Of a stretch of 19,983 nt of DNA, positions 3,651 through 19,983 are shown in pieces. The first letter of the stretch is position 1, and each line of letters opens with the position of its first letter. This stretch comes from an uncultured Oscillospiraceae bacterium (GTDB taxonomy: Bacteria; Bacillota_A; Clostridia; Oscillospirales; Oscillospiraceae): assembly GCA_910579155.1 (NCBI GenBank), contig CAJTTS010000061.1, positions 1 to 19,983 of the forward strand, given 5' to 3'. Below the pieces are notes generated by a model. It did no database searches. It saw only the letters and a list, made by a program, of their open reading frames with translations, and was not told where the DNA came from. Both the position numbers and the translations under genes were made by a program.

Positions 3651-3727
3651 GATTATTCAGACCTTTCCAAAAAAGTTTAATGGTTTTGTAACAGTTCCGT
3701 TCGAACTTTCGTAACGAACTCCCGCTA

Positions 3728-3763
3728 TCATAAAACTTGCAAGAGATACTCTTTCTTTTTCAT
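3728..3763 (-). CDS. Possible 11-codon leader ORF
   Basis: The sequence ATGGAGGATAAAATG gives a strong GGAGG ribosome site 5 nt before an ATG that opens an 11-codon frame (MKKKEYLLQVL). It sits about 80 bp upstream of the zinc-finger-like gene and about 20 nt after a GC-rich hairpin. It could be a leader peptide or the truncated start of a lost gene. Nothing beyond the ribosome site supports translation. Confidence 0.3.
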   Translation of the reverse strand: MKKKEYLLQVL

Positions 3764-3782
3764 TTTATCCTCCATCCTCAAA

Positions 3783-3999: not shown

Positions 4000-4760
4000 G
4001 CCTGTCCCTCCCCGGCTTCAATCTTGGAAATCTGCTCCCACTGTACCACGAACCGTCCATCGACCACCCGGTTGGTGTGATAGTGTCCGCAGAACCATTG
4101 GCTGAACCGGCACCGCTCTTTGACCGTTTCCAGGAAGTCGGTCAGCCTGTCCGGCTGATAGTCGGGGTTCAGCTCCCTGGTGACGCTGGTGGGGGCGCAG
4201 TGGGTGAGCACGCAGTCCACGCACCATCCGGCCCGCTCCAGATTGGCCTCGGCTTCGGTGTATTCCTCCTCGCTGGGTATCTCCTGGGGCCACCACGACT
4301 TCCCCAGCACCCGGAACCGGGCGTTCATACGCCGCATGGCCCAGTAGCGCCGCTCGAAGTCCGGCGCGGCGGGATCAAGGACGCCGTCCTGGATGTCATG
4401 GGAGGCGGCCCCGCCCATGGTGAACCAGATGAGCCCGCCGATCTCAAAGACCTGCCCTCGCATCAGGTGCAGCACATGGGGCCGCACCACATGGACGCGC
4501 CCGCCGTGCCACTCCTGCTCGGGATAGGCGTTCAGCAGGTCGAAGTTCTCATGGTTCCCGTCCACGAACAGAGTGGTGAAGGGCTTGTCCTCCAGCCAAT
4601 CCAGATGGTGGCCGTCCGCCTGTTCTCCGGCCCATACGCCGCCAAAATCGCCCGCGATGATCATGCAGTCCTCCCGGTTCATGCCCTTCAGCTGGGGGAA
4701 ATTCCTCGTGGTGAACCGCTGGAACCCGCCGTGGGTATCCCCTGTGACATAGATTCTCAT
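3996..4760 (-). CDS. Calcineurin-like metallophosphoesterase (254 aa)
   Basis: The protein has the ordered motifs of a binuclear metallophosphoesterase: GDTHG at residues 7-11, GDFGGVW in the second block, GNHEN in the third, and a C-terminal GHYH. These residues bind two metal ions and hydrolyse phosphomono- or diesters. There is no signal peptide, so it should act in the cytoplasm. Its start overlaps the stop of the third recombinase (ATGA) and its stop overlaps the next small gene, so it belongs to the recombinase operon. The substrate (nucleic acid, nucleotide or phosphoprotein) is unknown. Confidence 0.88.
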   Translation of the reverse strand: MRIYVTGDTHGGFQRFTTRNFPQLKGMNREDCMIIAGDFGGVWAGEQADGHHLDWLEDKPFTTLFVDGNHENFDLLNAYPEQEWHGGRVHVVRPHVLHLMRGQVFEIGGLIWFTMGGAASHDIQDGVLDPAAPDFERRYWAMRRMNARFRVLGKSWWPQEIPSEEEYTEAEANLERAGWCVDCVLTHCAPTSVTRELNPDYQPDRLTDFLETVKERCRFSQWFCGHYHTNRVVDGRFVVQWEQISKIEAGEGQA

Positions 4761-6409
4761 GCACTGACCCTCCTTGTGATTTCGATGACCTCCTGCTCGA
4801 CCTCCGTCCCATCCTTGAAGCGGACGGAGATCCGCTCTGCGTCCAGCACCTTGATGCTACTGATGGTCTGGTAGACCATGCCATCATCAAACTCCGTGAT
4901 GGCGCTGTCCATCTGCTCCAAGGTGTCGGTGATGTCCAGCACCCGGCTGTCGTAGGCGGCATCGGTGCAGCCCTGCCGCACCAGCTCAGCCTTTCGCTCC
5001 AGCATCGCGGTCATAGCGGCGCTCACCTGGGTGAGCTTCTCATCGTACTCGGTGCAGTCCGGCTCCTCCATTGCCAGCTGGAGCAGACTCATTTGTTCCT
5101 CCTGGAGCGCCTTCAGCCGAACCTCCACGGCGGGAAGGGTGAGGCCGCCGTCCTCCGCACCCGCCAGGGCGGCGGAGATGCACTGGGCCAGCAGCTCCTT
5201 TGCCGTCCTCTGCCGGAACATCTCGTTCAGGGCGGACACCACAGCGTCACGCAGTTCCGGCTCCTCCATTGTGGCAGAATCGTGGCAGATCCGCTTTCCG
5301 TGCTCGATGCGGTTGATGCACCGCCAGACGAACCGCTTCTGCCCGTTCGGCATATAGGTCACGCGGCGGTATGGGCTGCCGCACTCCGAGCACACCAGCA
5401 AGCCGCTGAGAACGTATTTCCCGCTGTGTTTGCCCTGCTCGGTTTTCGTTTTGGAGGAGGTTTTCCGCAGGCTGGACCGCCGCGCCATCTCCTCCTGCAC
5501 CCGCTGGAAAGTGACCCGGTCGATGATGGCGGGGTGGCAGTCGTGGACGTAGTATTTGGGGAGCTGGCCCTCATTTTTCACCTGCCGACGGTCGAACAGA
5601 TCCTCCGAGAAGGTTTTTTGCAGGATGGCGTCACCAATATACTTCTCATTTTGCAGGATAGACTTCACCGTGGAGCTGCACCAGGTTTCGCCGCCCTTGA
5701 CGCTTTTGATGCCGTCCGCCATCAGCCCATTGCAGATCTGCTGGTAGCTCTGGCCCATCAAACAGCGGGCGAAGATGCGGCGCACCACCACGGCCTCGTC
5801 CGGGTCGATCTCCGGCTCGCCGTCCGGGCCCGCGCGGTAGCCCAGCAGACTGTCGTAGTGGTAGTATACCACGCCGTCCGCGAACCGCTTGCGGTACCCC
5901 CATTTCACGTTGGTGGACAGGGATTCGCTCTCGGCCTGGGCCTGGCTCATCATGAAGGTGAGGAGCATCTCGTTGTCCAAGTATAGGGTGTTGGTATTTT
6001 CCTTCTCGAAGAACACGCCCACGCCGCACCGCTTCAGGCGGCGGACATATTCCAGCCCTTCCAGGGTATTGCGGCCAAACCGGGAGACCGATTTGGTGAT
6101 CACCAGGTCGATCTTGCCCTTTTCCGCGTCCCGGATCATTTTCATAAATTCCGGGCGCTTTTTGGCGGAGGTGCCGGAGATCCCCCGGTCGGCGTACATC
6201 CGCACCATAGTCCAGTCCTTGTTCCCGGCAATGCGCTGGGTGAAGTAGTCCATCTGGGCGGTGAAGCTGGTCTGCTGCTCCTCGCTGCCAGTGGACACCC
6301 GGCAGTAGGGGGCCACCCGCAGGTGCTGCTTGCGGATGTCCTTTTCGGTGTATTTTGGGTCTGCCGGGGTGACGGTGACCTTCCGCGGGGTTTTCTGCTG
6401 CATCTTCAT
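4757..6409 (-). CDS. Large serine recombinase (third of three)
   Basis: This 550-aa protein is a large serine recombinase, cutting and rejoining att-type DNA sites through a phosphoserine intermediate. The resolvase catalytic domain starts at about residue 31 (VAPYCRVST, nucleophile Ser39) and has the arginine motif KSVSRFGRN (Arg110, Arg113). The recombinase domain follows, then a zinc ribbon with CSEC and a later C...C pair around residues 335-385, and a coiled-coil-rich tail. The start overlaps the stop of the middle recombinase by 4 bp. Together with the two preceding genes it probably integrates and excises the element. The att site is not identifiable from this window alone. Confidence 0.93.
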   Translation of the reverse strand: MKMQQKTPRKVTVTPADPKYTEKDIRKQHLRVAPYCRVSTGSEEQQTSFTAQMDYFTQRIAGNKDWTMVRMYADRGISGTSAKKRPEFMKMIRDAEKGKIDLVITKSVSRFGRNTLEGLEYVRRLKRCGVGVFFEKENTNTLYLDNEMLLTFMMSQAQAESESLSTNVKWGYRKRFADGVVYYHYDSLLGYRAGPDGEPEIDPDEAVVVRRIFARCLMGQSYQQICNGLMADGIKSVKGGETWCSSTVKSILQNEKYIGDAILQKTFSEDLFDRRQVKNEGQLPKYYVHDCHPAIIDRVTFQRVQEEMARRSSLRKTSSKTKTEQGKHSGKYVLSGLLVCSECGSPYRRVTYMPNGQKRFVWRCINRIEHGKRICHDSATMEEPELRDAVVSALNEMFRQRTAKELLAQCISAALAGAEDGGLTLPAVEVRLKALQEEQMSLLQLAMEEPDCTEYDEKLTQVSAAMTAMLERKAELVRQGCTDAAYDSRVLDITDTLEQMDSAITEFDDGMVYQTISSIKVLDAERISVRFKDGTEVEQEVIEITRRVSA

Positions 6410-7275
6410 GCGCTCTGAACCTCCTTTTCCTCTGTGATGATGGTGCCGTTGACCAACTCCAGCTCCACACCTTTCTCTGGTGTGAGCCGGACAGCCCGCA
6501 CAGCTATGGACAGCAAGTCAGCCAGCGTATCGGTATCGGCAGGGCCCTGCTCCAACCGCACCCGGAGCTGTTCCATCTTATGGGCAGAGGTGGGGTCCGG
6601 GAGCTGTGCGTACCGCTGGGCAGCGATGGCGAAGATCAGCTTTTTCATGTACTCGGGCGTTTCAGTGCCCCGGTTGAAGGCCATGGTGAGCTCGTTCTGG
6701 AGCCGGATGGCGTCCATGTTGGGCGCGGTCTGCTGGAAAACTGGGGCGGTGAGCAGGTGGGGTGATTGGGCCAGCTCCCGGAGCCGCCCATCCACCAGCT
6801 CGGCCAGCATCTCGTCACTGATGGAGATGCTTTGTCCGCAGTCCGGGCTCTGACATTTCCAATGCACTCGGCCATGGGAGCGGGTGCCCCGCGCCGTCCT
6901 GCCGCCGCACAGGGCGCAGACGGTCTTGCCCTGGATAGGCTGTATCTCAGTGGCCAGCGGGGCGTATGTATTGCGCTCAGTGCGCTGGCGCTGGGCGGCG
7001 GCGAAGTCCTCATCGGGAACCAGCCGGGGCCAGCCGTCCGCGCCGGTGTATTTGGCATTTTCCAGGATACGTTTGACCATATTTTTGTTCCAGCCCGCCG
7101 TGTGCTGGTGGTAGCGGATGCCCTGATGGGTCATCTCCTCCGCAATAGCGAGGAGGGAGGCCCCGGCCTGATACTGGCCGAAGATGTACTTTACCGCGTC
7201 CGCTTCCTGGGGCTGGGGTTGAACCACGCCGCCCCGGATCATGTATCCGAAGGGGACCTTTCTCTGCCATGCCAT
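6406..7275 (-). CDS. Recombinase-family protein lacking the catalytic domain (second of three)
   Basis: This 289-aa protein begins directly in the recombinase DNA-binding domain (MAWQRKVPFGYMIRGG) and carries the conserved WNKNMVKRILENAKYTG segment. It continues with a zinc ribbon (CALC...C...C at about 112-140) and a C-terminal helical region. No resolvase domain or nucleophilic serine precedes it: the upstream gene stops only 3 bp before this start. Because both its neighbours are complete recombinases and the genes overlap or abut, it is more likely a dedicated accessory DNA-binding subunit than debris. It may set site choice or directionality. Confidence 0.85.
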   Translation of the reverse strand: MAWQRKVPFGYMIRGGVVQPQPQEADAVKYIFGQYQAGASLLAIAEEMTHQGIRYHQHTAGWNKNMVKRILENAKYTGADGWPRLVPDEDFAAAQRQRTERNTYAPLATEIQPIQGKTVCALCGGRTARGTRSHGRVHWKCQSPDCGQSISISDEMLAELVDGRLRELAQSPHLLTAPVFQQTAPNMDAIRLQNELTMAFNRGTETPEYMKKLIFAIAAQRYAQLPDPTSAHKMEQLRVRLEQGPADTDTLADLLSIAVRAVRLTPEKGVELELVNGTIITEEKEVQSA

Positions 7276-7278
7276 GGT

Positions 7279-8832
7279 TCACACCAGCCTTTCCATCAGC
7301 TCCAGCCCGTTGAGGAGCCGGAGTCTCACTTCTTCCGCCGAGACCACTGTGATCCGTTCCACCAGATTCTCAAAGATGTCGGGGGTGACTTCATCCTGCC
7401 ACTGGGCGCTGTCCAGATAGTCCAGCATGGCCTCGGTGGCCTGAATCTGCTCGTCCCCATCGGCGGCCTCCAGCACCTTCCGGCGCAGGCGGCGCAGGTC
7501 ACGGAGTTTGCGGTTGAGGGCATCCGCCTGGGATAAAGCAAGGGCAGGATCGATGCACCCCTTGCTTTTCAGCCGGATGAGCACCAGATTCTGCCCTGAA
7601 ATGTTGGCTATTTCCTTGTCGATGTCGGATAATTTTTGGTTGGAGCGCAGCTCCCGCTCCCGCAGCTCCCGGAGCTGTTCCAGCAGGGGCTGAAGGATTT
7701 CCTGCCCGTGGAGGGCCAGCTTGTTGTGGAGCCGTAGCAGGGCGGCGGTGAGAACTGTTTCGGGGATTTGGCGGGCAGTGCAGCAATCTTTGCCGGAGTT
7801 GTGGCGGTAGCAGTCCCAATATACCTTACTGCCGCATACCTTTCTGCGAAGTTTTGACCCGCATTTGCCGCAGTAGATCCTGCCGATGTAGATGGAGCGG
7901 GAGGACGTGGCCCCATCATAGAACTGTGTCCGGCGCTGGTCGATCAGCGTCTGTACCTTCTGGAAATCCTCCCGGCTGATGATGGCCGGATGATCCTCAT
8001 CCGCATGATATTTTGGATGCTGACCCACGTTCCTCATCTTCTGGAATGGGATAGTGTCGGTGGTGCAGAACTTCTGCCAGACGGAGTCCCCGGTATAGAA
8101 ACTGTTGGTGAGGATGTAGTGGACGGTGGTGTGGTGCCAGATTTTCCGCCCATGGCCCCGGTCGATGCCCAACTCGTTGAGCTCGGCGGCGATGGTTTTC
8201 CGGCCCATGCCGCACAGGGCAGAGGAGAAGATGTGCCGCACCACCTCGGCCTCCTCGGGGACGATCTCCGGTTCCAGCCCATGCAGGCGGTAGCCGTAGG
8301 GCATGGAGGACGGGGTGAAGATGCCGTTCTCCATCCGCATTCGGACGCTGGTGCGCATGGTGCTGGAGTGGCCGGTGGACTCCATCTGGGCGAAGGCCGC
8401 GTAGATCGCCGCCACCTGCTCGCCGCTGAGCTTGGCAGTGTCCATGTTTTCCTTCTCGAACTGGATGGTGACACCCAGCCGCATCAGCTCCCGCATGAAC
8501 CGCAGGGTGTCCCTGGTGTTGCGGGCGAACCGGGAGACGGACTTGACCAGGATGCGGTCGATCTTCCCGGAGCGGCAGTCCGCCATCATGCGGTTGAACT
8601 CATCCCGCTTCCGGGTGTCCAGCCCGGAAATCCCCTCGTCGGCGTAGATGTCCGCCAGTTCCCAGTCCCCGTTCTCGCCGATGAATCTGGTGTAGTAGTC
8701 CACCTGGGCCATGTAGGAGTTGAGCTGGTCTGCGGAATCGCTGCTGACGCGGGCGTAGGCAGCCACCCGGAGCTTGGCCTTTTCTTGGGTCACAGGCTGG
8801 ATCACAGTGACCCTTGGGGTTTGATTTGCCAT
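7279..8832 (-). CDS. Large serine recombinase (first of three)
   Basis: This is a 517-aa large serine recombinase. The catalytic domain contains AAYARVSSDS (nucleophile Ser30), the YADEGISG segment and KSVSRFARN (Arg101, Arg104). A recombinase domain follows, then a zinc ribbon (YCGKCG...CYRH...CC at about 324-358), and a long charged coiled-coil region typical of serine integrases. The start has a strong AAAGGAGG about 9 nt upstream. It opens the recombinase block and is followed after 3 bp by the catalytically incomplete partner. It likely shares the work of integration and excision with the third recombinase. Confidence 0.93.
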   Translation of the reverse strand: MANQTPRVTVIQPVTQEKAKLRVAAYARVSSDSADQLNSYMAQVDYYTRFIGENGDWELADIYADEGISGLDTRKRDEFNRMMADCRSGKIDRILVKSVSRFARNTRDTLRFMRELMRLGVTIQFEKENMDTAKLSGEQVAAIYAAFAQMESTGHSSTMRTSVRMRMENGIFTPSSMPYGYRLHGLEPEIVPEEAEVVRHIFSSALCGMGRKTIAAELNELGIDRGHGRKIWHHTTVHYILTNSFYTGDSVWQKFCTTDTIPFQKMRNVGQHPKYHADEDHPAIISREDFQKVQTLIDQRRTQFYDGATSSRSIYIGRIYCGKCGSKLRRKVCGSKVYWDCYRHNSGKDCCTARQIPETVLTAALLRLHNKLALHGQEILQPLLEQLRELRERELRSNQKLSDIDKEIANISGQNLVLIRLKSKGCIDPALALSQADALNRKLRDLRRLRRKVLEAADGDEQIQATEAMLDYLDSAQWQDEVTPDIFENLVERITVVSAEEVRLRLLNGLELMERLV

Positions 8833-9593: not shown

Positions 9594-9929
9594 TCAGCAC
9601 CCACGGGAAAGGGAAAACTGGACGAGGATACTGTTCAGCACAATCAGGTCGTTGCCCGCCAGGGTCGGCCTCATGCGCCGGAGCAGTTCTTCCTGCTGGG
9701 GTGACAATGTGCTGGCGTTGGGATGGAACCAACTTGCCAGTTCAACGCCGCCGCCATAGCGGCCTCGAGCAGTTTGGATTGGGTAAGCGGAGGAGAGCGC
9801 GGTGATGTCGGTGTATATGGTGCGCTCGGAAACGCCAAACAACCTTGCCAAAGATGTCACAGTGGTGTGCCCGTCCCTGCGCAAAGTGTTCATGATGGCG
9901 TTGCGGCGTTCAAGCTGGTTCAACCGCAC
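9594..9929 (-). CDS. DeoR/HTH_11-type transcriptional regulator (111 aa)
   Basis: The N-terminal half is a winged helix-turn-helix (QLERRNAIMNTLRRDGHTTV, then TSLARLFGVSERTIYTDITA), the pattern of DeoR and WYL-family regulators. After a GRYGGGV wing the protein has only a short helical tail and no sugar-binding or WYL domain, so it is a compact DNA binder. Translation starts at GTG 9929 with GGGGG 4 nt before it, and it overlaps the stop of the 73-aa gene by 10 bp. It lies upstream of the structured leader of the recombinase operon and is a good candidate for its control. Confidence 0.8.
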   Translation of the reverse strand: MRLNQLERRNAIMNTLRRDGHTTVTSLARLFGVSERTIYTDITALSSAYPIQTARGRYGGGVELASWFHPNASTLSPQQEELLRRMRPTLAGNDLIVLNSILVQFSLSRGC

Positions 9930-10621: not shown

Positions 10622-11440
10622 TCAAGCGGCAAAGGCGACCCCAAGCTGTCTGCCATTTCTGAAAATGACATAGTTCCCGTTTTCGTCCTTCATCAGATAC
10701 CAGCCAGGGGCGAGCTTGTAGCTGCCGTCCTTGATGCTCTGTGTGACCGCGGCCAGCTTGATGGCGGCATCCTGCAGGGGCAGCACATCATCCCTCAGCT
10801 TTTTCAGGCTGTCTATGGCCTCATTCAGCTGCTTGCGCTCAATTGCGCCGGTGATCGCGCTGGCGATCATGTCGGTGACGATAAAGGCGGCCGCGCTGAT
10901 TACCGTGCTGAGCAGCGCGCCCCCCATAAATGCCATAACAGATGCGGCGACGCCCCCGATTGCGCTGATCAAGGCAATCGTAATGGAAATGCCCTGGAAA
11001 ATGTAGAAGCCCAGATAAGCGGCGGCCGCCGCAGTAGCAACCGTTGAAATAATCTTGCACACCTTCAGAAGGGTAAGCTCTCCCAGATCCTCCAGCTTTG
11101 CGCCCTTTTCCTTCCAGTCGTTGGGAAGCAGTTCGGTTACGCCAATGTCATCCATCAATTTCTTCATTTTTGAATCGGAATCCGATATCACCGCGTTGAT
11201 CTCTTCAATGCACGCTCCAACGGGGTCCGCGTTGATGTTTTTTTCGAGCTTGCGCAGGGTCACCCCGTAGAACGGAGTACCCGGCTTTGCCGCCTGCTGG
11301 AACGCTGCGTTCAAAAGGTCGGCATTTTCGTTCCACGCGTTTTTATACTGCCTGAACAGGGTTGTGATCTCCCCGCGGAGATTGGCGACCTCCTGGCGCT
11401 TCCTGGGATTCTCGGGGTAAAAGACATCATCGAAAATCAT
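10622..11440 (-). CDS. Unknown helical protein with long central hydrophobic segment
   Basis: I do not recognise this 272-aa protein. Residues 1-120 and 200-240 look strongly helical and charged. Residues about 126-200 are almost continuously hydrophobic, rich in Ala, Ile, Val and Gly, enough for two or three membrane passes. The last 30 residues (YKLAPGWYLMKDENGNYVIF) look like a small beta unit. A helix-hydrophobic hairpin-helix layout is seen in alpha-helical pore-forming toxins of the HBL/ClyA type, but no specific motif confirms that and no classical signal peptide is visible. AGGAG lies 9 nt before the ATG. It is the gene directly after flagellin. Confidence 0.65.
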   Translation of the reverse strand: MIFDDVFYPENPRKRQEVANLRGEITTLFRQYKNAWNENADLLNAAFQQAAKPGTPFYGVTLRKLEKNINADPVGACIEEINAVISDSDSKMKKLMDDIGVTELLPNDWKEKGAKLEDLGELTLLKVCKIISTVATAAAAAYLGFYIFQGISITIALISAIGGVAASVMAFMGGALLSTVISAAAFIVTDMIASAITGAIERKQLNEAIDSLKKLRDDVLPLQDAAIKLAAVTQSIKDGSYKLAPGWYLMKDENGNYVIFRNGRQLGVAFAA

Positions 11441-11489: not shown

Positions 11490-11568
11490 GTTTTGCATTG
11501 GGTTTATGCAGATTTTCCAAGAACGGCGCTCCCCAAAGGGCTCCCGCAGAGCCGGACTTTGCGACGAA

Positions 11569-14067
11569 TCACTGGAGGAGCTGGAGCACGCCCTGGGGGA
11601 CCTGGTTGGCCTGGGCCAGCATGGCCTGGGCGGACTGGATCAGGATGTTGTTCTTGGTGTAGGCCATCATTTCCTCGGCCACGTCCACGTCGCGGATGGT
11701 GGACTCGGCGTCCTGGATGTTCTCGGTCATGACGGACAGGTTGTTGATGGTGTGGTCCAGGCGGTTCTGGGTGGCGCCCAGGGTGCCGCGGACATCGGAC
11801 ACGGCATTGATGGCGTCCTTGATCTTGTCGATGGCCTTGGCGGCATCAGCCTGGTTGGCGATGTTCAGACCATCCAGGCCCAGGGACTTGGCGTGCATAT
11901 CCCGGATGGACACTTCCAGCTGGTTGTAGCTGTCGGCGGTATCGCCGATCTGGAGCCGGAGGCCCTTGGCGCTGTTCACAGTATCGGCATTGTTCACGGT
12001 GGAGATGCCGATGTAGCTGGCGATCTTATCCTTGGTGGTCATGTCGGTGCTGTCCTTGGCGGAGGTCAGCTGCTGGAGGGTGGTGTGGCCCAGGCCGTCG
12101 TGGCCGACGGAGAAGGTGGCGTTGTCCTTGGCGGCGGCGGTCAGACGCATGGCAAAGGTCTGGACATCGGTCTTCTCGGTGTCGGACAGATAGACCACGT
12201 TGCTGGCGTTCTTGTACGCGCTGTTCTCGCCGATGGCCACGGTGTAGGTGGTGTCGCCCAGAGTGATCTGAGCGCCGTCCTTCATGGCGCTGGACAGGTC
12301 GATGGTGGCGTTGGCCAGCTGGGCGGACGCGCCGCTGTTGTAGTCGGTCACGTTCTGGAGGCCGGCGTTGATGGTGCCGCTGTCGGCGCTGGCCGCCTGG
12401 GTGGCGGTGAGGGCCGTGCCCGCGGTGCCGCCGTAGGAGACCGCGTCCAGCTCAGCCTCATCGCCAGTAGCAGCGGTCTTCTTGGTGAGGGTAAGGGTAT
12501 TGCCGGTGGCAGTCAGGGTATAATTTGTGGTAGCCTTGCCGTTCAGGGTCGTCGCCAGGTCGGTATCCCAGGTAAAGTCCTGGCCGTCAACCGTAACAGT
12601 GTCGCCGTCGTTCAGGGTCGCACCGGTGAAGTCATAGGTGGCACTGCCCTTCGTGCCATCGCTGCCGCCAGCGAGGGCGACGGTCTCAGTTACACCATCT
12701 ACGTCAACGGCCACATCACCGTTGCCAGCCGCGCCAGCTTCAGCGGCAGTAATGGTGATCGTGCCGTCAGTAGCAACGCTCCACTCATATTTGCCATCGG
12801 CGGTTGTGCCGGCCTTTTCTGCGGTGCCGTCAAAGTCACCGGCGTTGACCACTGTCTCGGTGCCAATCTTGAGAACACCAGTGCCATCGGTTTTCAGCTT
12901 AGCAGTAGCATTCTTTGTTGCGGCCTCCGGGTCAGCGGCGGTATTTCCCTTGGTGCCGTTGATATCCGTGCCGGCAACAGCGCCGTAGGAAATCGCGGGG
13001 GCAGCGGCGGCTCCGGTGGAATCGGTCAGGGTGATGGTCTTGGTATCGGCATCGTAGGCAATCTCATAGCCCTTATCATTGCCCGCCTGACCATCAATGT
13101 CACCGATATCCGTAACAGTAATCTCGTTTCCATCAATGGTGATCTTACCCGCAGCCACAATGTCAGCGATCTGGGCGTCGGTCAGAGTGAGGTTATACTT
13201 GACGGAGGTGTCGGTAGGGTCGCCGTTGGTCCAGGAGACCTTGGCCTGGGTCTTGACGCTGTTGGTGCCGGTGCTGGTGAACTTCAGGACGTTGTTCTCG
13301 GCGGTCACGGTGTAATCGTTGCCGTCGTCGCCGGTGAAGGTGCCAGTCTTGGCCAGCTCGGTGGCCAGAGCCTTGCCGTCATACGCCTTGCCGGCCTCAA
13401 GGGCAGCGGTCATGGTCTGACCGCCGATGGTCAGGGTGAAGTTCTCGCCCTTGCCCACGACGTTCACGTTGTCCAGGCTGATCTGGAACCCGGCGGAGGA
13501 CTTGGCGGTGCCCTCGGTCTCGACGACGCCCTTACCGGCAGCAACGTCTGCCTCGCTGGTGCCCAGGAAATCGGTGTTGGTAAACAGCTTCGCGACATCG
13601 CTCGTGCTCAGCTTGTCGTAGGTGGCCGCGTCCACACCGGAGGCCATGGTGCCGTCCAGCAGGTTGATGCCGTTGAAGTTGGAGGAATCAGCGATGCGGT
13701 TGATCTCGCTCAGCAGCTGGTCAACCTCTTTCTGGAGCTGCTTACGGTCGGTGGTATCCTCGTAGGTGCCGTTGGCGGACTGGGTGGCCAGCTCCACCAT
13801 ACGGTTGAGCATATCGTGAACCTCGGTCAGAGCGCCCTCGGCGGTCTGCACCAGGCTGATGCCGTCCTTGGCGTTCTTCTGGGCGGTCTCCAGGCCGGTG
13901 ATCTGGGCGCGCATCTTCTCGGAGATGGCCAGACCGGCGGCGTCATCGCCCGCGCGGTTGATCTTGTAGCCGGAGGACAGCTTCTCCAGGTTCTTCTTCA
14001 TGGCGGACACGTTGTTAGTGTAGTTACGGTACGCCGACATGGCCATTATGTTATGCTGGATCCTCAT
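11569..14067 (-). CDS. fliC: Flagellin (832 aa, large variable domain)
   Basis: This is a flagellin, the filament subunit exported by the flagellar type III system. The N-terminal D0/D1 domain (about 1-145) is canonical: [35 protein letters not shown], and [15 protein letters not shown] at 87-101. The C-terminal domain (about 715-832) is also canonical and ends [12 protein letters not shown]. Between them lies a very long Thr/Asp/Gly-rich variable region made of repeated short beta-strand-like units with very few aromatic residues. The total is much longer than the 270-500 aa usual for the family. GAGGAAG precedes the ATG. It follows csrA and the TnpB-like gene on the same strand, and the mobile-element setting suggests a cargo flagellin rather than the core chromosomal one; that last point is inference. 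Confidence 0.96.
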
Positions 14068-14094
14068 TTTAAAATCTTCCTCTCAATAAAATGA
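14064..14094 (-). promoter_or_regulatory. Flagellin start-region hairpin presenting the Shine-Dalgarno in its loop
   Basis: In the flagellin mRNA a perfect 8-bp stem TCATTTTA/TAAAATGA encloses a 15-nt loop. The loop contains GAGAGGAAG, which is the ribosome site and a GGA core. The 3' arm contains the AUG. CsrA is known to bind GGA in hairpin loops, and Bacillus hag mRNA is controlled this way. More GGA triplets occur at 14105-14145 (GCGGAG, CAGGGAA, ACGGAT) and just after the AUG. Confidence 0.6.
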
Positions 14095-14208
14095 TTTTTT
14101 GAATTACTCCGCTGTGCTTTCACCTATTCCCTGGATCCGTCACAATGGAGGGTGCGCTTCGCGTGTGTTCCGTGGCCTTTGGAATGTTAGCTCGGCGCGA
14201 TATTTCAA

Positions 14209-14224
14209 CCGGCTCGTCAGCCGG
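14209..14224 (-). terminator. Small hairpin between csrA and flagellin
   Basis: A perfect 6-bp stem CCGGCT/AGCCGG with a GACG loop starts about 13 nt after the csrA stop, without a T-run. It may reduce read-through or mark the processed 5' end of the flagellin message. I found no clear promoter between csrA and flagellin. Confidence 0.35.
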
Positions 14225-14236
14225 AAGAAACCAAAT

Positions 14237-14611
14237 TCATTTTGGGGCGTAGATCGTCTCATTGGACGCAAATTCGGGCGGGAACAGGAAGTCGAGCTGG
14301 CGGCGCAGATCCTTTACGCGCTCGTCCCCGCCGTCCATCTGGCTGAGCAGCCGCCGCATGGCGGTCAGCGCCTGGGACTTGTTCCGGTTCCAGGACAGCC
14401 CCGGGCCGGAGTGAACCGGGCGGGCCGTTTTCATGACGCACTCCGGGCGTTCTGCGCCGGTGCGTTCCAGTACCTCGCCCCGCACAATGGGCACTTCCCT
14501 GGGGGCCTCCACCATCAGCTTGCAGCGGCTGCCGGAAACGTCGTTCAGCTGGACAATCACGTCGCTGCCGATGGTCATGTATTCCCCTGTTTTGAGTTGA
14601 AGGAACAGCAT
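14237..14611 (-). CDS. csrA: CsrA-like RNA-binding translational regulator with C-terminal extension
   Basis: Residues 1-52 match CsrA: MLFLQLKTGEYMTIGSDVIV, then KLMVEAPREVPIVRGEVLER. Leu4 and the RNA-contacting Arg44 are kept, while the usual Arg6 is Leu6. CsrA dimers bind GGA-containing hairpins and block translation; in Bacillus the target is flagellin mRNA and FliW antagonises it. The protein is 124 aa, against about 60-75 for the family. The extra 70 residues form a charged, partly helical tail (SQALTAMRRLLSQMDGGD). The start at 14611 has AAAGGAG 6 nt upstream. The gene lies between the TnpB-like gene and flagellin, so flagellin mRNA is the natural target. Confidence 0.85.
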   Translation of the reverse strand: MLFLQLKTGEYMTIGSDVIVQLNDVSGSRCKLMVEAPREVPIVRGEVLERTGAERPECVMKTARPVHSGPGLSWNRNKSQALTAMRRLLSQMDGGDERVKDLRRQLDFLFPPEFASNETIYAPK

Positions 14612-14679
14612 GGCAAACTCCTTTCGCCTGCTTTTCATCGTCATAATGTTTTGGACGCCCCGAAGGGCTTCGGGCACGA

Positions 14680-14860
14680 ATTTCAAAGAAAAGGCGCCTT
14701 CTCGTTTCCCACTTAGCGGCCTGGAAAACGCTGAGTGAAAGGCGGCCGGACGGCTGCGCTTCACTCAACGCTCCCAGCCGGAACCATGGGCGTTCACCGG
14801 CGTCCCGACCGGTATAGCTGGGGTATATTTGCAAAGCTATGCGCTTTCTCGCAGCTCCTG
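14680..14860 (-). ncRNA. Candidate guide-RNA (omega-RNA-like) scaffold of the TnpB homologue
   Basis: TnpB proteins use an RNA encoded by the 3' end of their gene and the DNA just after it. Here the region after the stop shows the expected kind of structured tail: ACCGG/CCGGT near 14805, then GGGAGCGTTGAGTGAAGC (a motif I recall from clostridial IS605 ends). An 11-bp stem CGTTGAGTGAA/TTCACTCAGCG follows at 14729-14770, then an 8-bp stem CGTTTTCC/GGGAAACG at 14703-14730, and the palindrome AAGGCGCCTT followed by TTCTTT at 14691-14700. The guide would be expected at or just before the last element. The guide boundary and the target are not resolved from sequence. Confidence 0.5.
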
Positions 14861-16024
14861 CGAACTGAAATGCTGCTCAAGGCCCAAGGCTTTGATGTTT
14901 TTCGCGGCGTTGACTTCCCGGTTATGCGCCGCGCCGCACTTGGGGCATTGCCACCGCTTGCGCTTGTAATGCACCTCGTCATCCAGCACAAGCCCACAGA
15001 CAGAGCAGGTACGGGTTGTGGGCATATACCGATCCACCAGAATCAGCGGCTTGCCCTGCCGTGCCAGCTTGTATCGCAGACACTCCCGGAACATACCGAA
15101 CCCGGAATCCAGCACATTGCCCAGATTCATCCTTTTGGAGAGCGTCTGCATCGAATCGCTTCTGATGCACACGGCGTCCCAGCCGTTGGCTATCCGGCTG
15201 GATTCCTTGTGGATAAAGTCGCGCCGCTGGTTGGCGATGTGCTCATGGAGCTCACGGTACTTTTGGACTGCTTCGTTATAGTTGTTGGATCCGGGCTGCA
15301 TCCGGTTGAGCCGCCGCTGGAGCTTTGCCAGCTTTTCCTGGGACTGCTTCATCCAATGAGGGGCATCGGCCATACCGCCGTTGTCCGCCACATAGAAGTG
15401 GCCCATGGAGTATTTCAGGCCCACGGTGGTCTCCGCTGTGGGGGCGACAGGCTCCGGCTTCTTCACGGTATATTCGTAGAGAATATAGGCGTAATATTTG
15501 CCGGACTTCGTTTTCTCCACCGTGACCCGCCGCAGCTTCCAGCCGTTTCGCGGGCGGCGGGGGAACTTGCCCCGGACGATCCCCGCCTTGGTCATGCGGA
15601 TACCGTCCCGCGTGATATAAATGGTGGGGCCGGATTCAAACACATGGTTGCAGGCGGTAAAGGAATCCCGGTCAGTCTTTTTCTTTTTGAACTTGGGCCG
15701 ACCAAAGGCTTCCGGGCTCTTGAAGAACACGCGGAACGCCTGGGACAGCTTGTTGTGCTCCTGGATGAGCGCCTGGTTATCGACCTCTTTCAAAAACGGC
15801 GCTTCCTTTTTGTACTTGGCCGGGGTGGGGATGAAGTGCTTGTCGGTTTCCAGGTAAAACCGCTGCTGATCCGCCAGCATCCGGTTCCAGATGTAACGGC
15901 AGCATCCGAAGGTGTTTTCAAAGAGCTCCGCTTGAGCCTCGTTGGGGTAGAGACGGGCTTTGATGGTGTTGTACTGGACGATCCGCCCGTCTGCGGCGCG
16001 CTGTTCCCTGGGCTTCCTCGGCAT
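14837..16024 (-). CDS. tldR: Nuclease-dead TnpB homologue, TldR-like RNA-guided repressor
   Basis: The 395-aa protein has the full TnpB layout: an N-terminal wedge/helical part (QYNTIKARLYPNEAQ, CCRYIWNRML), a split RuvC domain and a C-terminal zinc finger with Cys340, Cys343, Cys360 and Cys363. The three RuvC catalytic positions are changed. The usual VG[IL]D is VGLK (Lys204), the usual Glu of VCIED is Arg288 (VCIRSD), and the last Asp of DRDxNAA is Glu370 (NREVNAA). DNA cleavage is therefore unlikely, while RNA and DNA binding may remain. Dead TnpBs next to flagellin genes are known as TldR, RNA-guided transcriptional repressors. No tnpA or intact transposon is present. Its neighbours are a resolvase upstream and csrA and flagellin downstream. 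Confidence 0.85.
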   Translation of the reverse strand: MPRKPREQRAADGRIVQYNTIKARLYPNEAQAELFENTFGCCRYIWNRMLADQQRFYLETDKHFIPTPAKYKKEAPFLKEVDNQALIQEHNKLSQAFRVFFKSPEAFGRPKFKKKKTDRDSFTACNHVFESGPTIYITRDGIRMTKAGIVRGKFPRRPRNGWKLRRVTVEKTKSGKYYAYILYEYTVKKPEPVAPTAETTVGLKYSMGHFYVADNGGMADAPHWMKQSQEKLAKLQRRLNRMQPGSNNYNEAVQKYRELHEHIANQRRDFIHKESSRIANGWDAVCIRSDSMQTLSKRMNLGNVLDSGFGMFRECLRYKLARQGKPLILVDRYMPTTRTCSVCGLVLDDEVHYKRKRWQCPKCGAAHNREVNAAKNIKALGLEQHFSSQELRESA

Positions 16025-16062
16025 TGCGGCCTACCTTCCCTTTCCTGCCCGAACGAAAATTT

Positions 16063-16088
16063 GGACGGGATTGTATACTCCTCCGTCC
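16063..16088. repeat. 26-bp dyad site, proximal copy
   Basis: Plus-strand half site GGACGGGATTGT, central AT, right half ACTCCTCCGTCC. It matches its partner at 16178-16203 in 22 of 26 positions, and 19 bp including the TTT in front are identical. The 26-bp length with a 2-bp centre is the format of crossover sites of small serine recombinases. It lies just upstream of the TnpB-like gene. Confidence 0.6.
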
Positions 16089-16127
16089 AGGGCATTTTTC
16101 AAAAATCTTACCTTCGTTCTGTACTAC

Positions 16128-16135
16128 ATATCGGC
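16128..16135 (-). promoter_or_regulatory. Perfect flagellar-sigma (sigma28/sigmaD) -10 box
   Basis: GCCGATAT, the -10 consensus of the flagellar sigma factor, points toward the tldR-csrA-fliC genes and lies between the two dyads. The -35 position at 15 nt spacing reads TTAT rather than TAAA, so the promoter may be weak, altered or accidental. Confidence 0.4.
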
Positions 16136-16177
16136 ATTGCTCCGAGGAAAATAATACTTTTGCGTAAAAATTTTTTT

Positions 16178-16203
16178 GGACGGGATTGTATACGTTCCCG
16201 TCC
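16178..16203. repeat. 26-bp dyad site, distal copy
   Basis: Half sites GGACGGGATTGT and ACGTTCCCGTCC flank a central AT. The two halves match in 10 of 12 positions when one is reversed, so this is the better dyad of the two. It ends 4 bp from the stop codon of the resolvase. Centre-to-centre distance to the other copy is 115 bp, in direct orientation. Confidence 0.65.
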
Positions 16204-16207
16204 AGCT

Positions 16208-16831
16208 TTATTTTGCCCTCACGCAGTCCGAAGCCCGTTCGGCGCGGAGGGAAGCGTCCCGGAACGTGGATTTCGGGATGCCGCAGGCTTCCGCCGCAGC
16301 CCGAAGTGTCATACGCTTATTCCGCCACGCCTGCCGCAGTTCCTCAAAACTATCTGGCAGCGGGTGGCATGGCGGGCCAAAACGCACTCCCTTGGCTTTT
16401 GCTTCCGCGATCCCCTCCGCCTGCCGCTGACGGATATTTTCCCGTTCCGTCTGGGCCACGTAGCTGAGGAGCTGGAGCACGATGTCCGCGATCAGCGTGC
16501 CGGTGAGATCCCGCCCCTGCCGGGTGTCCAGCAGGGGCATATCCAGCACTACGATGGCGGCTTTCCGCTGCTTTGTGATCGTACCCCACTGCTCCAAAAT
16601 CTCATCGTAGTTCCGCCCCAGCCGGTCGATGCTCTTGACCACCAGCACGTCCCCCGGCTGCAAGGCCCTCACCAGCCGCTGGTAGCGCGGGCGGCAGAAG
16701 TCCTTCCCGGACTGCTTTTCTACAATAATATTTTCTTCTGTGACGCCAAACTCCTGCATTGCGGTGAGCTGGCGCGCCTCGTTCTGCTCCTGTGTGGACA
16801 CCCGCACATAGCCGTATGTGTTCTCTGTCAT
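16208..16831 (-). CDS. Small serine recombinase (resolvase/invertase, 207 aa)
   Basis: This is a compact serine recombinase of the Hin/Tn3-resolvase type. The catalytic domain has YGYVRVSTQEQN with nucleophile Ser12 and KSIDRLGRN with Arg70 and Arg73. The long E helix (LLSYVAQTERENIRQRQAEG) follows, and a C-terminal helix-turn-helix (MTLRAAAEACGIPKSTFRDA) binds DNA. The catalytic domain is N-terminal and the HTH C-terminal, so it is not an IS607 TnpA, which has the opposite order. The start has AAAGGGG upstream. Two 26-bp dyads directly after the gene are likely its sites. It could resolve element dimers or switch the flagellin module. Confidence 0.92.
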   Translation of the reverse strand: MTENTYGYVRVSTQEQNEARQLTAMQEFGVTEENIIVEKQSGKDFCRPRYQRLVRALQPGDVLVVKSIDRLGRNYDEILEQWGTITKQRKAAIVVLDMPLLDTRQGRDLTGTLIADIVLQLLSYVAQTERENIRQRQAEGIAEAKAKGVRFGPPCHPLPDSFEELRQAWRNKRMTLRAAAEACGIPKSTFRDASLRAERASDCVRAK

Positions 16832-16841
16832 GGGTCGGCCC

Positions 16842-16970
16842 CTTTCTGTAAAATGCGGTATTTGAGTAATACTATATTTTACCAGAAACGGGCTGTTTAC
16901 ACATCCAGCGACTTCAAAAAGTTCCTATAACACCAAACAAACCGAGCTGTTTCGAACCGAGCTGTCTGAT
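16842..16970 (-). promoter_or_regulatory. Resolvase upstream region with tandem 15-bp repeat
   Basis: Two copies of AACCGAGCTGT at 16940-16950 and 16955-16965 form a tandem repeat with 15-bp period. Closer to the gene lies an AT-rich GGTAAAATATAGTATTAC stretch that could supply a -10 element (TATAGT). The repeat could bind a regulator; no -35 is convincing. Confidence 0.35.
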
Positions 16971-16972
16971 AC

Positions 16973-17230
16973 TCACTTGATTTGATAGAGATTTGAGGTC
17001 AAGCTCCCATTCTCCCTCCACCTGCTGGACTTCTCCACCAGCCCCGCCCTCACCAGATCGTCCAGCGCCCGCTTCACCGTTGAGCGGGACAGGCTCACCC
17101 CAGCGGCGATGGTATTGATCCCCGGCCAGCAGGTGCCCTGCTTGTTGGCGTGATCCCGCAGATAGATGAGCACGACCTTGGCACGTGAGCTTAACTCGCC
17201 ATCCTGATAGATAGAATCATAATAGGCCAC
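16973..17230 (-). CDS. Helix-turn-helix replication/conjugation-associated protein
   Basis: This 85-aa protein is a winged-helix DNA binder: AKVVLIYLRDHANKQGTCWP followed by GINTIAAGVSLSRSTVKRAL and DDLVRAGLVEK, the pattern of the HTH_36/RepA-N-like helix-turn-helix group. Two starts compete. GTG at 17230 has GGGAGG 7 nt upstream and begins MAYYDSIYQDGELS. ATG at 17245 adds five residues but contains that ribosome site inside the gene. I prefer the GTG. Either way the gene starts at or just inside the end of the VirD4 gene, so it is coupled to the conjugation operon. Its function there is unknown. Confidence 0.75.
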   Translation of the reverse strand: MAYYDSIYQDGELSSRAKVVLIYLRDHANKQGTCWPGINTIAAGVSLSRSTVKRALDDLVRAGLVEKSSRWRENGSLTSNLYQIK

Positions 17231-17234
17231 CACA

Positions 17235-18425
17235 TCACCTCCCATCCGTGGGCGGTGGCTGGCTGACCCGCCTCTTTGCGGAATCGGGCATCGTTGCCAA
17301 CGGATGACGTTCTGTCTGTCGAGGCTCGTCACCTCCATGCTCAATCTGCCGCCCAGCCCGTCCCTCTCGCGGGGGACGGGCTTTTTCGCCCTTCCTCGGG
17401 TCTGTCCAAAACCGGGCGATGATGGCGTCCTCCAGCTCCTGCCGTCCAGCGTAGTACACCTTCCGCTGCCCATGCTCCGGGGTCTGGTAAGGCTCCCCGA
17501 AGGTAATGCCCCAGTCCAGGAACAACCGCAGCCGTGTCCGCATGGGGTGTGAGCCGGTTTTCATCACCACAAACTCGCCCTTGGGGATGGACTTCAGCTC
17601 ATCCGGCGTCATCAGCGCCCGCTCCGCCATCTGGAGGGACTGGCTGTTCTCGCCCTTGCTCCGGCTAATGGAGCCGGACTGGACGGTGTAGCTGCCCAGA
17701 GAGCGGGACAACTCCTCGGCGGTCTTGCTGTTGGGGGCGAAGCCGCCGAAGATGGTCGATTGGCAGTTGTCCTGAATGATCTCCGAGCCCTCTTTGCCGT
17801 AGTTTTTTTCCAACTGCGCCAAGCTCTGTATGATGGGAAGCATGGTCAGCTTCCGGGAGCGTCCCGCGCTGAACAGGGACAGCACATCGAAGGGGGGCAT
17901 GGTGCCGAACTCGTCACAGAACAGCACCACCCGGTTCTTCAGCTTGCCGCCGTTTTCGTCCGCCACGGAGAACAGCTCCCGGCTCAAATTCTGGATCATT
18001 AATCCCGCCATGAAGTTCTTGGTCTGATCTTCCTCGGGGAGTATCAAAAAAATGGCGGATTTTTTACTGGCAAAGCTCTCGGCATCGAGCGGGCTGTCGA
18101 AGCAGATCGTCTGCTCCAGCTCGGTGTCCAGAAAAGCGTTCAGCCGGGAGAGCACCGTGGACAGCACCGATGCCATGGCCTGCTCGGAGGTGTTGAGGGC
18201 CGCTCCCGCAAACCACCGGGCCTTGTGCTCGGGCGGCAGGCGGCTCATCAGCACCTGGAAGCAGCTCTTGCCCTTGGTCTGGGACGGCTCCAGCAGATCC
18301 TGCACCAGCTTGAACACCGACACAATGTGGCGGCGTTCCCGAAGCTCCCCATCAATTTTCTTGGGCGGCAGGTACTCAGCCAGCAGGAGGATCACCGCTG
18401 TGAGCAGACCCTCGGCGGAGTCGTA
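17235..18425 (-). CDS. virD4: VirD4/TraG-type coupling protein, 3' exon (interrupted by a group II intron)
   Basis: This part encodes about 396 residues of a type IV coupling protein, the hexameric ATPase that brings DNA to a conjugation channel. Visible segments are EGLLTAVILLLAEYLPP, HKARWFAGAALNTSEQAMAS, the Walker B VVLFCDEFGTMPPF, FSAGRSRKLTMLPIIQSLAQ and DNCQSTIFGGFAPNSKT. The Walker A part and the membrane segments are missing because they lie in the 5' exon outside the window. The open frame continues upstream to 18503, but that part is intron domain V/VI and not protein. The exon begins near YDSAEG; the exact splice point is an estimate. If the intron splices, a full protein can still be made. 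Confidence 0.85.
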   Translation of the reverse strand, partial: YDSAEGLLTAVILLLAEYLPPKKIDGELRERRHIVSVFKLVQDLLEPSQTKGKSCFQVLMSRLPPEHKARWFAGAALNTSEQAMASVLSTVLSRLNAFLDTELEQTICFDSPLDAESFASKKSAIFLILPEEDQTKNFMAGLMIQNLSRELFSVADENGGKLKNRVVLFCDEFGTMPPFDVLSLFSAGRSRKLTMLPIIQSLAQLEKNYGKEGSEIIQDNCQSTIFGGFAPNSKTAEELSRSLGSYTVQSGSISRSKGENSQSLQMAERALMTPDELKSIPKGEFVVMKTGSHPMRTRLRLFLDWGITFGEPYQTPEHGQRKVYYAGRQELEDAIIARFWTDPRKGEKARPPREGRAGRQIEHGGDEPRQTERHPLATMPDSAKRRVSQPPPTDGR

Positions 18426-18488
18426 ATGGGATAAGCGTCCCCGCGCCTTGCCGCGTCTCCACGGTAGGTTTCGGGTCAGCTCTCCCCC

Positions 18489-18522
18489 GAACCGGACGTA
18501 CACCTCTCAGCGTATCCGGCTC
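18489..18522 (-). ncRNA. Group II intron domain V
   Basis: A 34-nt hairpin starts GAGCCGGATACGC, has a GAGA loop and ends GTACGTCCGGTTC. This is the conserved catalytic domain V with the AGC-type triad region near its 5' side. It lies 22 nt after the maturase stop, at the expected place. Confidence 0.9.
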
Positions 18523-18543
18523 TCCATCTACCAGCCTAAGCGA

Positions 18544-19983
18544 TTAGCTGTGTATCTTTTCGTGGCAGACTTTACATACGGCAAGGGATTTTCGCCGCAT
18601 TTTCCTCATCAACATTTCCCAGTCATTGCCGCCAGTGAGGTCTTTCAGCCTTCTGACGTGGTGCATACGGATATCGTCGGTTTTCTGCCCGCACAGTTCG
18701 CAAACGCCGCGCTTGATTCGGGCCGCATTGCTGTTTGGGCTGGTGTACTTCCTTACATATTCCGGCAGGGTGTCGGCGCCCATCAGAACCTCTTTGATGC
18801 GCTTGAAGCCGTCATGGTAAAATTCATACCTTTTCATGCCCGCTTTCGTCTGATACGGAACATAAAATATCCCGTTGTCCGAATATCTGTCGATGATTTT
18901 TCTCACCGTGGTGCGATATTTGCAGGCGAAGGTTTTGTACATACTGTACTCCATGATGTGGGCAAATTTACCCAGCACCGACACGTTATTTGCCAGCCGG
19001 TAGTAGTTGTAGATACCTCTGATTTCCGCGTTGAACTTGGTGATGATTTCGATATCAGGATGATTGACGAGTTTGCCACGGTGTACCGTTTTCCAGATTT
19101 CTTTTCCAGTTTCGTCATACTTGATTTTGAATGTGTGGTATTCCAACAGTTTCCCCATCCATTTTTCTTTCGGAACGTACAGCATGACTCGTCCGCTGTA
19201 CTCCCGTTTCGCGACGCCCTGCTCATTGTATTTGATGGCGTCACTGCGTGAGATGCAGATGTCGTAGCCCAGGAACCTGGCGAAGTCGGAGGAGTGCGTG
19301 ATTTTGGTCTTTTCCTCGGACAGCTCCAGCTTGAGGGCGCTTGCAAGAAAATCTTTTACATCTGCTTTGATGCGCTCTGCGTCCTGCTTGCTTCCAATTA
19401 CACTGATAATAAAATCATCGGCGTATCGGCAGTAGTGTAGGCATTTATAGCTGCTGTTGCATTGTGCATAGTAGGGGTAAACGAACATTTCATTCCTCGC
19501 CCTGCGGAGCTCCCGGTCCATCTCCGCTTTCTGTTCCGGGGCTGCTGTGTCCCATTGCCCTTGAAAGGATTTTTCCAGCTTGTGGTACTTGCCGCGGGCT
19601 CTCAGGTAGTCACTGGCTACCTTTCGATTTTTGGATGTACCAACGTCAAATGACCTCTTGTAGCTGTGCATGAACCGGTCCAGCCTGTCCAGATAAATAT
19701 TTGCCAGAATCGGGCTGACTCCGCTTCCCTGCGGTGTGCCGGAATAGGTTTTGTGGTATTGCCATTGCTCCATATATCCGGCCCGAAGGAATTTCCAGAT
19801 GAGGGCGAGAAAATATTCGTCACTGATGCGCGCACGAAGAATGTCCACCATGATATGGTGGTCGAAGCTGTCGAAGCAGGCTCTGATGTCGCCTTCCACG
19901 AACCACACCGCGCCCTTAAAGTTGATATCGATGTGCTTGAGCGCGGTGTGACAGCTCCGTTTGGGTCTGAATCCATGGGAATC
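18544..19983 (-). CDS. ltrA: Group II intron reverse transcriptase/maturase with HNH domain (5' truncated by window)
   Basis: The frame is open to the window edge and starts mid-protein at DSHGFRPKRSCHTALKH, an RT motif, so 479 residues are visible and the N terminus is missing. RT blocks include EGDIRACFDSFDH, GTPQGSGVSPILANIYLD and the catalytic CRYADDF. The maturase X region holds IRGIYNYYRLANN. The C terminus is an HNH endonuclease with CELCG, RMHHVRRLKDL and CKVCHEKIHS. The protein helps the intron splice and carries out target-primed reverse transcription at new DNA sites. All key residues seen are intact, so the intron may be mobile. Confidence 0.93.
   Translation of the reverse strand, partial: DSHGFRPKRSCHTALKHIDINFKGAVWFVEGDIRACFDSFDHHIMVDILRARISDEYFLALIWKFLRAGYMEQWQYHKTYSGTPQGSGVSPILANIYLDRLDRFMHSYKRSFDVGTSKNRKVASDYLRARGKYHKLEKSFQGQWDTAAPEQKAEMDRELRRARNEMFVYPYYAQCNSSYKCLHYCRYADDFIISVIGSKQDAERIKADVKDFLASALKLELSEEKTKITHSSDFARFLGYDICISRSDAIKYNEQGVAKREYSGRVMLYVPKEKWMGKLLEYHTFKIKYDETGKEIWKTVHRGKLVNHPDIEIITKFNAEIRGIYNYYRLANNVSVLGKFAHIMEYSMYKTFACKYRTTVRKIIDRYSDNGIFYVPYQTKAGMKRYEFYHDGFKRIKEVLMGADTLPEYVRKYTSPNSNAARIKRGVCELCGQKTDDIRMHHVRRLKDLTGGNDWEMLMRKMRRKSLAVCKVCHEKIHS

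Follow-up and report, generated by a model that had tools for sequence, protein, structure and literature searches.

What would an invertase, a TnpB homologue with a disabled nuclease site (TldR), a CsrA-like protein and a flagellin be doing side by side in one block of DNA, and does this block move? The question is raised by a stretch of 19,983 nucleotides from an uncultured Oscillospiraceae bacterium (contig CAJTTS010000061.1), the whole of which is referred to here as the window. We consider it probable that an integrative and conjugative element carries this block as cargo, and that the block is a cassette for the phase-variable, RNA-guided replacement of flagellin. A Hin-type invertase would flip a segment of about 115 bp (measured from site centre to site centre) containing a promoter for the motility sigma factor. 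With the segment ON, as it is oriented in the window, a single operon would be expressed which specifies TldR, its guide RNA, CsrA and the flagellin of the element. TldR and its guide would bind the first codons (about 5–8) of other flagellin genes and block their transcription, and with these repressed the flagellin of the element would take their place. Its own gene would escape repression through a synonymous change, the third base of isoleucine codon 7 (ATA or ATC for ATT), which faces position 8 of the guide, being different while the peptide stays the same. CsrA may add a layer of translational control.

The initial annotation had placed these four genes on one strand between a conjugation gene and a cassette of recombinases, and gene calls and family matches bear this out (Table 1). 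The genes hin, tldR, csrA and that for flagellin all lie on the minus strand, in this order from 16831 to 11569, with the gene for a type IV coupling protein (T4CP) upstream and large serine-recombinase genes downstream. The 832-amino acid flagellin and the CsrA-like protein are confirmed through PF00669/PF00700 and PF02599 motifs, respectively. The small serine recombinase is present as described, but is a Hin-type invertase beside an invertible promoter and not the resolvase of an element; the closest protein to it is the hin product of L058 (92% identity). Based upon alignment to CsrA models, csrA is likely to start at the ATG at 14611 in preference to the GTG at 14764.

Residues 21–381 of the TnpB homologue can be aligned with solved TnpB-like nucleases, and the NCBIfam model guided_TnpB matches residues 21–379 [E 3.6e-69]; TnpB homology therefore extends over its full length. 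Alignment to a solved TnpB-like nuclease shows that the three RuvC acids have become K204, R288 and E370. The assignment of the protein to the TldR kind, made on the basis of a disabled RuvC site, is thus upheld in a protein whose family match is intact over its length. An intact DED site was looked for in relatives as well and found in none: across an alignment of 74 TldRs, that of the window among them, the first D occurs in 0/74, the E in 0/74 and the last D in 2/74. Thirty homologues share 75–91% protein identity with the window TldR, and K204, R288 and the zinc-finger cysteines are invariant in all 31 proteins.

Scanning a genome collection for TldR relatives yielded at least 80 loci which, with one member from IMG/VR (L081), make 81 relatives; the genomes are mostly metagenome-assembled and possibly incomplete. 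Among the matches listed they belong to Oscillospiraceae, Oscillibacter, Flavonifractor, Lawsonibacter, Intestinimonas and others, to uncultured bacteria or Firmicutes, and in one case to Lachnospiraceae. IMG/VR returned 22 loci, L081 being the sole close relative (74%) and the others 31–40% identical, and neither the 72,556 plasmids nor the 50,697 phage records searched gave a match to TldR at 60% identity or above. Gene order was tallied at 80 loci, among the 81 relatives, with a tldR match above 45% identity, several contigs ending inside the block. A flagellin start lies downstream of tldR in 70/80, csrA in 62/80, and both csrA and fliC in 60/80; upstream, hin is found forward in 40/80 and reversed in 7/80. 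All four genes stand in order on one strand at 33 of these loci. Such frequencies, both for csrA with fliC downstream and for the full order, argue that the arrangement is not due to chance.

The segment between the tldR stop codon and csrA is conserved, ends with TCC or TTC, and is followed by a stretch resembling flagellin codons 5–11. RNAalifold analysis of 50 of the 71 guide-bearing sequences gave 45 base pairs, 30 of which had changed on both sides with the pair kept in at least one sequence. This predicted RNA, identified by its sequence, is a guide RNA with a covarying scaffold at the 3' end of tldR, as the initial annotation had expected for a dead TnpB. At five of the 76 loci searched (L048, L059, L070, L071 and L072) no guide was recognised; L068, L073, L074, L078, L079 and L080, in which tldR is truncated or distant, were left out of the search. 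We considered that the guide might be a chance copy and rejected this, the 16-mer AAYATTATGACNATGA having 40 occurrences, spread over 31 of the 46 genomes searched, and its backward control none. Antisense action on the mRNA is ruled out, as the guide shares the sense of the flagellin mRNA. Three matches to AAYATTATGACNATGA lie outside the scanned loci, two in a transporter-like membrane gene (judged from its translation) and one in L190. This last locus (G017:C69, near 265–280) keeps the guide RNA and csrA with most of tldR gone, and might supply guide RNA in trans. At most loci the guides read ATGAC at the place (position 12) where nearly all flagellins have ATGGC, and ACGATGA after guide position 12 is conserved despite an incomplete match to flagellin.

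Which flagellins do the guides resemble? Flagellin gene starts were gathered from 48 genomes and further stretches, and each guide was compared, always in one register, with the flagellin that follows it (own) and with others, a group made up of flagellins that do not follow any of the scanned tldR loci (at least two of the group nevertheless have such genes nearby, L191 a csrA and L192 a tldR and csrA of its own). One comparison took the best other flagellin per guide (70 own and 48 other pairs) and a second all others fitting one pattern (53 own and 64 other pairs), which left out own flagellins without the pattern, e.g. that of L024; both give the same picture. In the second, the core positions 3–11 match in full in 4/53 own as against 39/64 other pairs, and position 8 matches in 11% of own and 92% of other pairs. 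When labels were permuted within the 38 genomes having both kinds, 0 of 10,000 permutations reached the observed own/other differences. These figures were computed in genomes of relatives and not in the host of the window. The guide match to flagellin genes which the initial annotation had called for is therefore found, in relatives. Its proposal that the host flagellin is repressed holds insofar as the guides resemble other flagellins, but the match is to codons 5–11 of reading frames and not to a promoter. That the element carries a flagellin of its own, with repression apparently aimed at other flagellins, agrees with the sequences.

Guide position 8 corresponds to the third base of flagellin isoleucine codon 7. 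At this codon ATT is used by 12/67 own and 44/49 other flagellins, while among isoleucine codons 13 to approximately 140, taken as a control, ATT makes up 18% in own (89/491) and other (66/359) alike. ATA occurs at codon 7 of 15/69 own flagellins versus 17 of the 2324 isoleucine codons elsewhere in them (Fisher p 6e-16); in the window flagellin the single ATA among 43 isoleucine codons is codon 7 (14049–14047). Five genomes with TldR that lay outside the pattern-based comparison gave ATT in 1/6 own and 7/8 other flagellins, in a tally made by hand, as was that for TldR-free genomes given below; the own flagellins of some of the five (e.g. G295) may already be counted among the 69 used for ATA. 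Of these genomes, G133 and G257 carry TldRs of just 52–54% identity, and L055 and L056 may come from G295. The guide of L058, with AACATT, meets AACATT in L169, another flagellin of the same genome. The usual pattern is reversed at L009 and L065, where the guide has ATC and the own flagellin ATT, and both other flagellins of L009 have ATC. For the TldR of Enterobacter the seed comprises nucleotides 1–6, and repression occurs despite some natural mismatches (Walker et al. 2026, Nature Microbiology; PMC13418256). If the guide proper begins at position 3, a register which we infer, position 8 would be the last seed base. Self-exemption by a synonymous codon looks new; it was not found in the main text of PMC13418256.

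The recombination sites between hin and tldR are two 28-bp quasi-palindromes. We take GCCGATAT, which lies between them, to be a SigD/FliA-like -10 box on the basis of the consensus; no clear -35 box for it was found in the inverton. The box is reversed in L011, and a box with one mismatch is reversed in L058. Relative to L058, about 150 bp of the window are inverted at 78% identity between collinear flanks at 81%. Inversion is also evident between five further pairs of loci whose flanks share 95% identity or more, over lengths of 121–159 bp: L011/L081 (142 bp), L064/L069 (121 bp at 100%), L022/L075 (about 159 bp), L045/L046 (152 bp) and L048/L050 (131 bp). With a strict pattern, a GCCGAT-type box 40–230 bases upstream of tldR is forward in 13/74 loci, backward in 20/74 and absent from 41/74; equal coding stretches of the same 74 loci, examined as a control, gave one such box in total. 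A small open reading frame between inverton and tldR in L011 (2464–2937) resembles the C-terminal part of the invertase, the L011 copy being the one compared with protein families, and similar matches sit upstream of tldR in L001, L008, L023, L026 and L081.

Outside the cassette limits given in Table 1 the window shares no DNA similarity with the relatives; when the whole window was compared with the 81 loci the variable middle of the flagellin gene was likewise without blastn matches. The flanks are those of a conjugative element. Their counterpart is L207, a conjugative element of Flavonifractor plautii ATCC 29863 (G040 contig C219), in the same genome as L049. The two share the order T4CP, HTH_36, cargo, DeoR-like protein, three recombinase homologues and metallophosphoesterase, with identities of 72% for T4CP, 53% for HTH_36, 50% for the DeoR-like protein and 39% over 69 residues for the metallophosphoesterase. 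The cargo slot of L207 holds agr-type genes (AgrB, GHKL kinase and LytTR regulator), whereas that of the window holds the flagellin cassette. The large recombinase genes, the middle one of which (6406–7275) lacks a Pfam resolvase domain, are matched in L207 by fragmented homologues that keep the order, and are likely to form the integration module. The 5' part of the T4CP gene, which is interrupted by a group II intron, lies beyond the window; some DNA match to the T4CP stretch was found in 79 of 400 genomes, many of these matches being short.

Conjugation genes accompany related cassettes elsewhere. In L058 genes for T4CP, VirB4-like, CHAP and DUF6017 proteins lie directly upstream of the cassette, in L024 a VirB4 homologue at 90% and a T4CP are on the same contig, and a relaxase or its homologue lies near L001, L050 (31%) and L076 (46%). 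The T4CPs of the window and L058 are only about 26–27% identical while the hin products share 92% and the TldRs 75%, and different element backbones therefore seem to carry the cassette. The two cassette edges were found to share no exact repeat of nine or more bases, whether direct or inverted, and a search with the flanks for an empty site returned nothing above approximately 80% identity over single genes. The cassette limits, T4CP, recombinase genes and L207 backbone together agree with the earlier suggestion of a mobile element; the cassette appears to be cargo of a conjugative element, with which it would be transferred, and this setting looks new.

Hairpins with a GGA loop are enriched upstream of both own (33/72; 9.1 in mononucleotide shuffles) and other flagellins (30/51; 8.4 in shuffles). 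In the published csrA-associated loci the CsrA site in the leader of the repressed flagellin is CAAGGAUG; here the published motif CAAGGATG was found within 130 nt in 6/51 other leaders and 0/72 own leaders. We considered that CsrA might spare the own flagellin; this could not be established, neither the counts of CAAGGATG nor the GGA hairpins giving a separation. The exact role of CsrA, including translational control, is presumed here.

Several observations weigh against a mobile cassette for flagellin replacement. One might suppose that this is an ordinary chromosomal regulator which by chance adjoins conjugation genes or lies within a decayed element, its mobility being irrelevant, which we think unlikely. 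The relatives are called chromosomally encoded in PMC13418256. A T4CP was found on the contig of the cassette in just 2 of the 23 genomes examined (G020/L024 and G044/L058), and the queries used picked up no conjugation gene in most other relatives, for which the shortness of the contigs is part of the reason. The 20-kb window includes no relaxase, VirB4 or attachment ends, its T4CP gene is split by the intron, and loci that look like elements have TldRs dispersed across the tree, their most recent common ancestor spanning 71 of 74 tips. Against such a regulator stand the loss of similarity to 81 relatives at the cassette edges, the flanks that match a backbone with agr cargo, and the T4CP, VirB4 and relaxase homologues near related cassettes. 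It is very improbable that the module is the functionless remnant of a dead transposon. The lost nuclease site would fit this explanation, as would L190 with its guide RNA and csrA but little tldR; the high identity of 30 homologues to the window TldR, with invariant K204, R288 and zinc-finger cysteines, the structure-preserving changes in the RNA, the conserved gene order and published binding data for a relative (PMC13418256) all argue against it.

Alternatively, the codon difference between own and other flagellins might reflect a codon preference at the start of translation, or the shared descent of two flagellin lineages, which we regard as unlikely. In family genomes without TldR (31 sites in 17 genomes; none at E 1e-100) codon 7 is ATT at 19/31 sites, well above the 18% elsewhere in flagellins, and part of the signal is therefore a codon habit of the start region; moreover, the loci are related, so that the permutations and Fisher tests overstate independence. 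Against this alternative stand the ATA at own codon 7, so rare elsewhere, and the reversed pattern of L009 and L065; measured against the TldR-free level, moreover, ATT is lower in own (p 4e-5) and higher in other flagellins (p 0.004). There are further difficulties for RNA-guided replacement. The target of the window guide was not seen, all matches coming from genomes of relatives, and this guide belongs to a class with C at position 5 (17/71 guides) where most flagellins of relatives have T; own and best other flagellin can thus each carry one core mismatch. We predict that the host of the window has an AAC-ATT flagellin. Matches at position 12 (0.04 own, 0.08 other) and position 2 (0.21 own, 0.33 other) are few, which indicates that the paired part is short. 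If rU:dG is counted as pairing, own flagellins match position 8 in 0.66, and ATC would then be a weak mismatch. The frequency of GGA hairpins does not differ significantly between own and other flagellins (p 0.20), and by the same criterion the leader of the window's own flagellin has none.

The initial annotation had left it to be checked whether such an arrangement is already catalogued, and csrA-associated TldR loci are in print. In Oscillibacter and Flavonifractor, Walker et al. describe TldRs which are associated with hin, are linked to fliC and csrA, and have guides aimed within flagellin reading frames (PMC13418256). Their main text reports a split guide RNA in Oscillibacter and four such loci in one strain, hin upstream of most csrA-associated loci, inversions of approximately 120 bp with a FliA promoter, CsrA as a proposed second layer of control, and RIP-seq and ChIP-seq for an Oscillibacter relative; RNA-guided DNA binding and repression are thus on record for relatives. 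The basic system of the window is therefore of the published kind, which it resembles in gene content, dead RuvC site, guide after tldR, target in a coding frame and inversions after hin. Unlike the published loci, called chromosomally and host-encoded there, the window cassette lies in a conjugative element. The words mobile, conjugative, synonymous and self-target are absent from the main text of PMC13418256; the locus may be in its supplementary tables. A full-text literature search (TldR, TnpB, flagellin) gave no other paper on the csrA-associated system among the matches listed; PMC11481859 contains the word TldR once. We conclude that the window holds a genuine csrA-associated TldR locus which looks functional and whose setting is a variant one.

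Two other systems invite comparison. Wiegand and co-workers reportedly described, in 2024, a fliC-associated TldR of Enterobacter prophages, and we know of no csrA or hin in that unit. As in the window, a mobile element brings in a flagellin along with an RNA-guided repressor directed at that of the host. In the Enterobacter prophage FR-phi the vehicle is a phage and the target the fliC promoter (PMC13418256). The window differs in its conjugative vehicle, its target at the coding start and its phase switch. In the hin-fljBA system of Salmonella an invertase flips the promoter for a flagellin and for FljA, the repressor of the other flagellin. The window likewise has an invertase flipping a promoter ahead of flagellin and repressor; unlike Salmonella, with its FljA protein, it has TldR with a guide RNA, plus CsrA. 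By analogy, an RNA-guided repressor would stand in the place of FljA. The Hin switch is also mentioned in PMC13418256.

We lean, with some reserve, towards the wider view that conjugative elements, besides phages, spread these cassettes in gut Oscillospiraceae, that the synonymous base of codon 7 facing the guide seed is a mark of self coevolving with the guide, and that coexisting cassettes repress the flagellins of one another but not their own. If so, RNA-guided flagellin swapping travels on conjugative elements as well as on phages, and gut commensals could exchange a surface antigen recognised by the immune system in a single transfer, its expression thereafter being turned on or off. A sharp and cheap test of how short TldR guides tell near-identical genes apart is offered by the codon-7 rule, which, if true, would explain how several cassettes coexist in one genome.

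Table 1. Features of the flagellin cassette and of the flanking element in the window
Feature	Position	Strand	Basis
hin-type serine invertase, 207 aa	16208..16831	-	PF00239, E 2.9e-30; PHROG 125 'DNA invertase', E 5.8e-51
Upstream recombination site, quasi-palindrome centred on GTATAC	16177..16204		pattern match, 0 expected in 200 shuffles
-10 box GCCGATAT in inverton, toward tldR (ON)	16128..16135	-	sequence and scan
Downstream inverton recombination site	16062..16089		pattern match; segment inverted versus L058
tldR, nuclease-dead TnpB, 395 aa	14837..16024	-	K204/R288/E370 replacing D/E/D
Guide RNA scaffold (predicted)	14653..14824	-	scaffold and guide recognised in 71/76 loci including window; covarying structure
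Guide region AAAACATTATGACGATGA (predicted)	14635..14652 (starts 14652)	-	like flagellin gene start; core positions 3–11 = 14650–14642
csrA, 124 aa, C-terminal extension	14237..14611	-	PF02599, E 8.7e-15; CsrA-like PHROGs
Flagellin, 832 aa	11569..14067	-	PF00669, E 4.1e-45; PF00700, E 4.2e-29
Cassette limits	11568..16892		all blastn matches (E 1e-10 or better) to 81 relatives fall inside
T4CP 3' exon, CD1115 family	17235..18425	-	PF02534; NCBIfam conju_CD1115
HTH_36 protein beside T4CP, conjugative backbone	16973..17473	-	family match; kept beside T4CP in 8 other elements compared
DeoR-like HTH protein, backbone	9594..9929	-	family match; homologues in L001, L011, L081, L207
Three large serine-recombinase genes	4757..8832	-	7279–8832, 6406–7275, 4757–6409; PF00239/PF07508/PF13408
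Group II intron with reverse transcriptase in T4CP gene	18426..19983		

A few other features of the window may be mentioned. A distant homologue of the intron's reverse transcriptase is also located upstream of the T4CP in L195/L201. Between the flagellin and DeoR-like genes, 10622–11440 specifies a 272-aa protein with a hydrophobic middle, which has no Pfam match and a weak match to a tape-measure PHROG [E 3.5e-4]. A pemK RNA motif [RF02913, 69 bits, cut-off 34.8] occurs on the minus strand at 9307–9368, upstream of the recombinases. Lastly, a mostly noncoding stretch of about 100 bp at 3676–3778 is found at 73–88% identity in many genomes of the family, and is possibly a regulatory RNA or a sequence from the end of the element.

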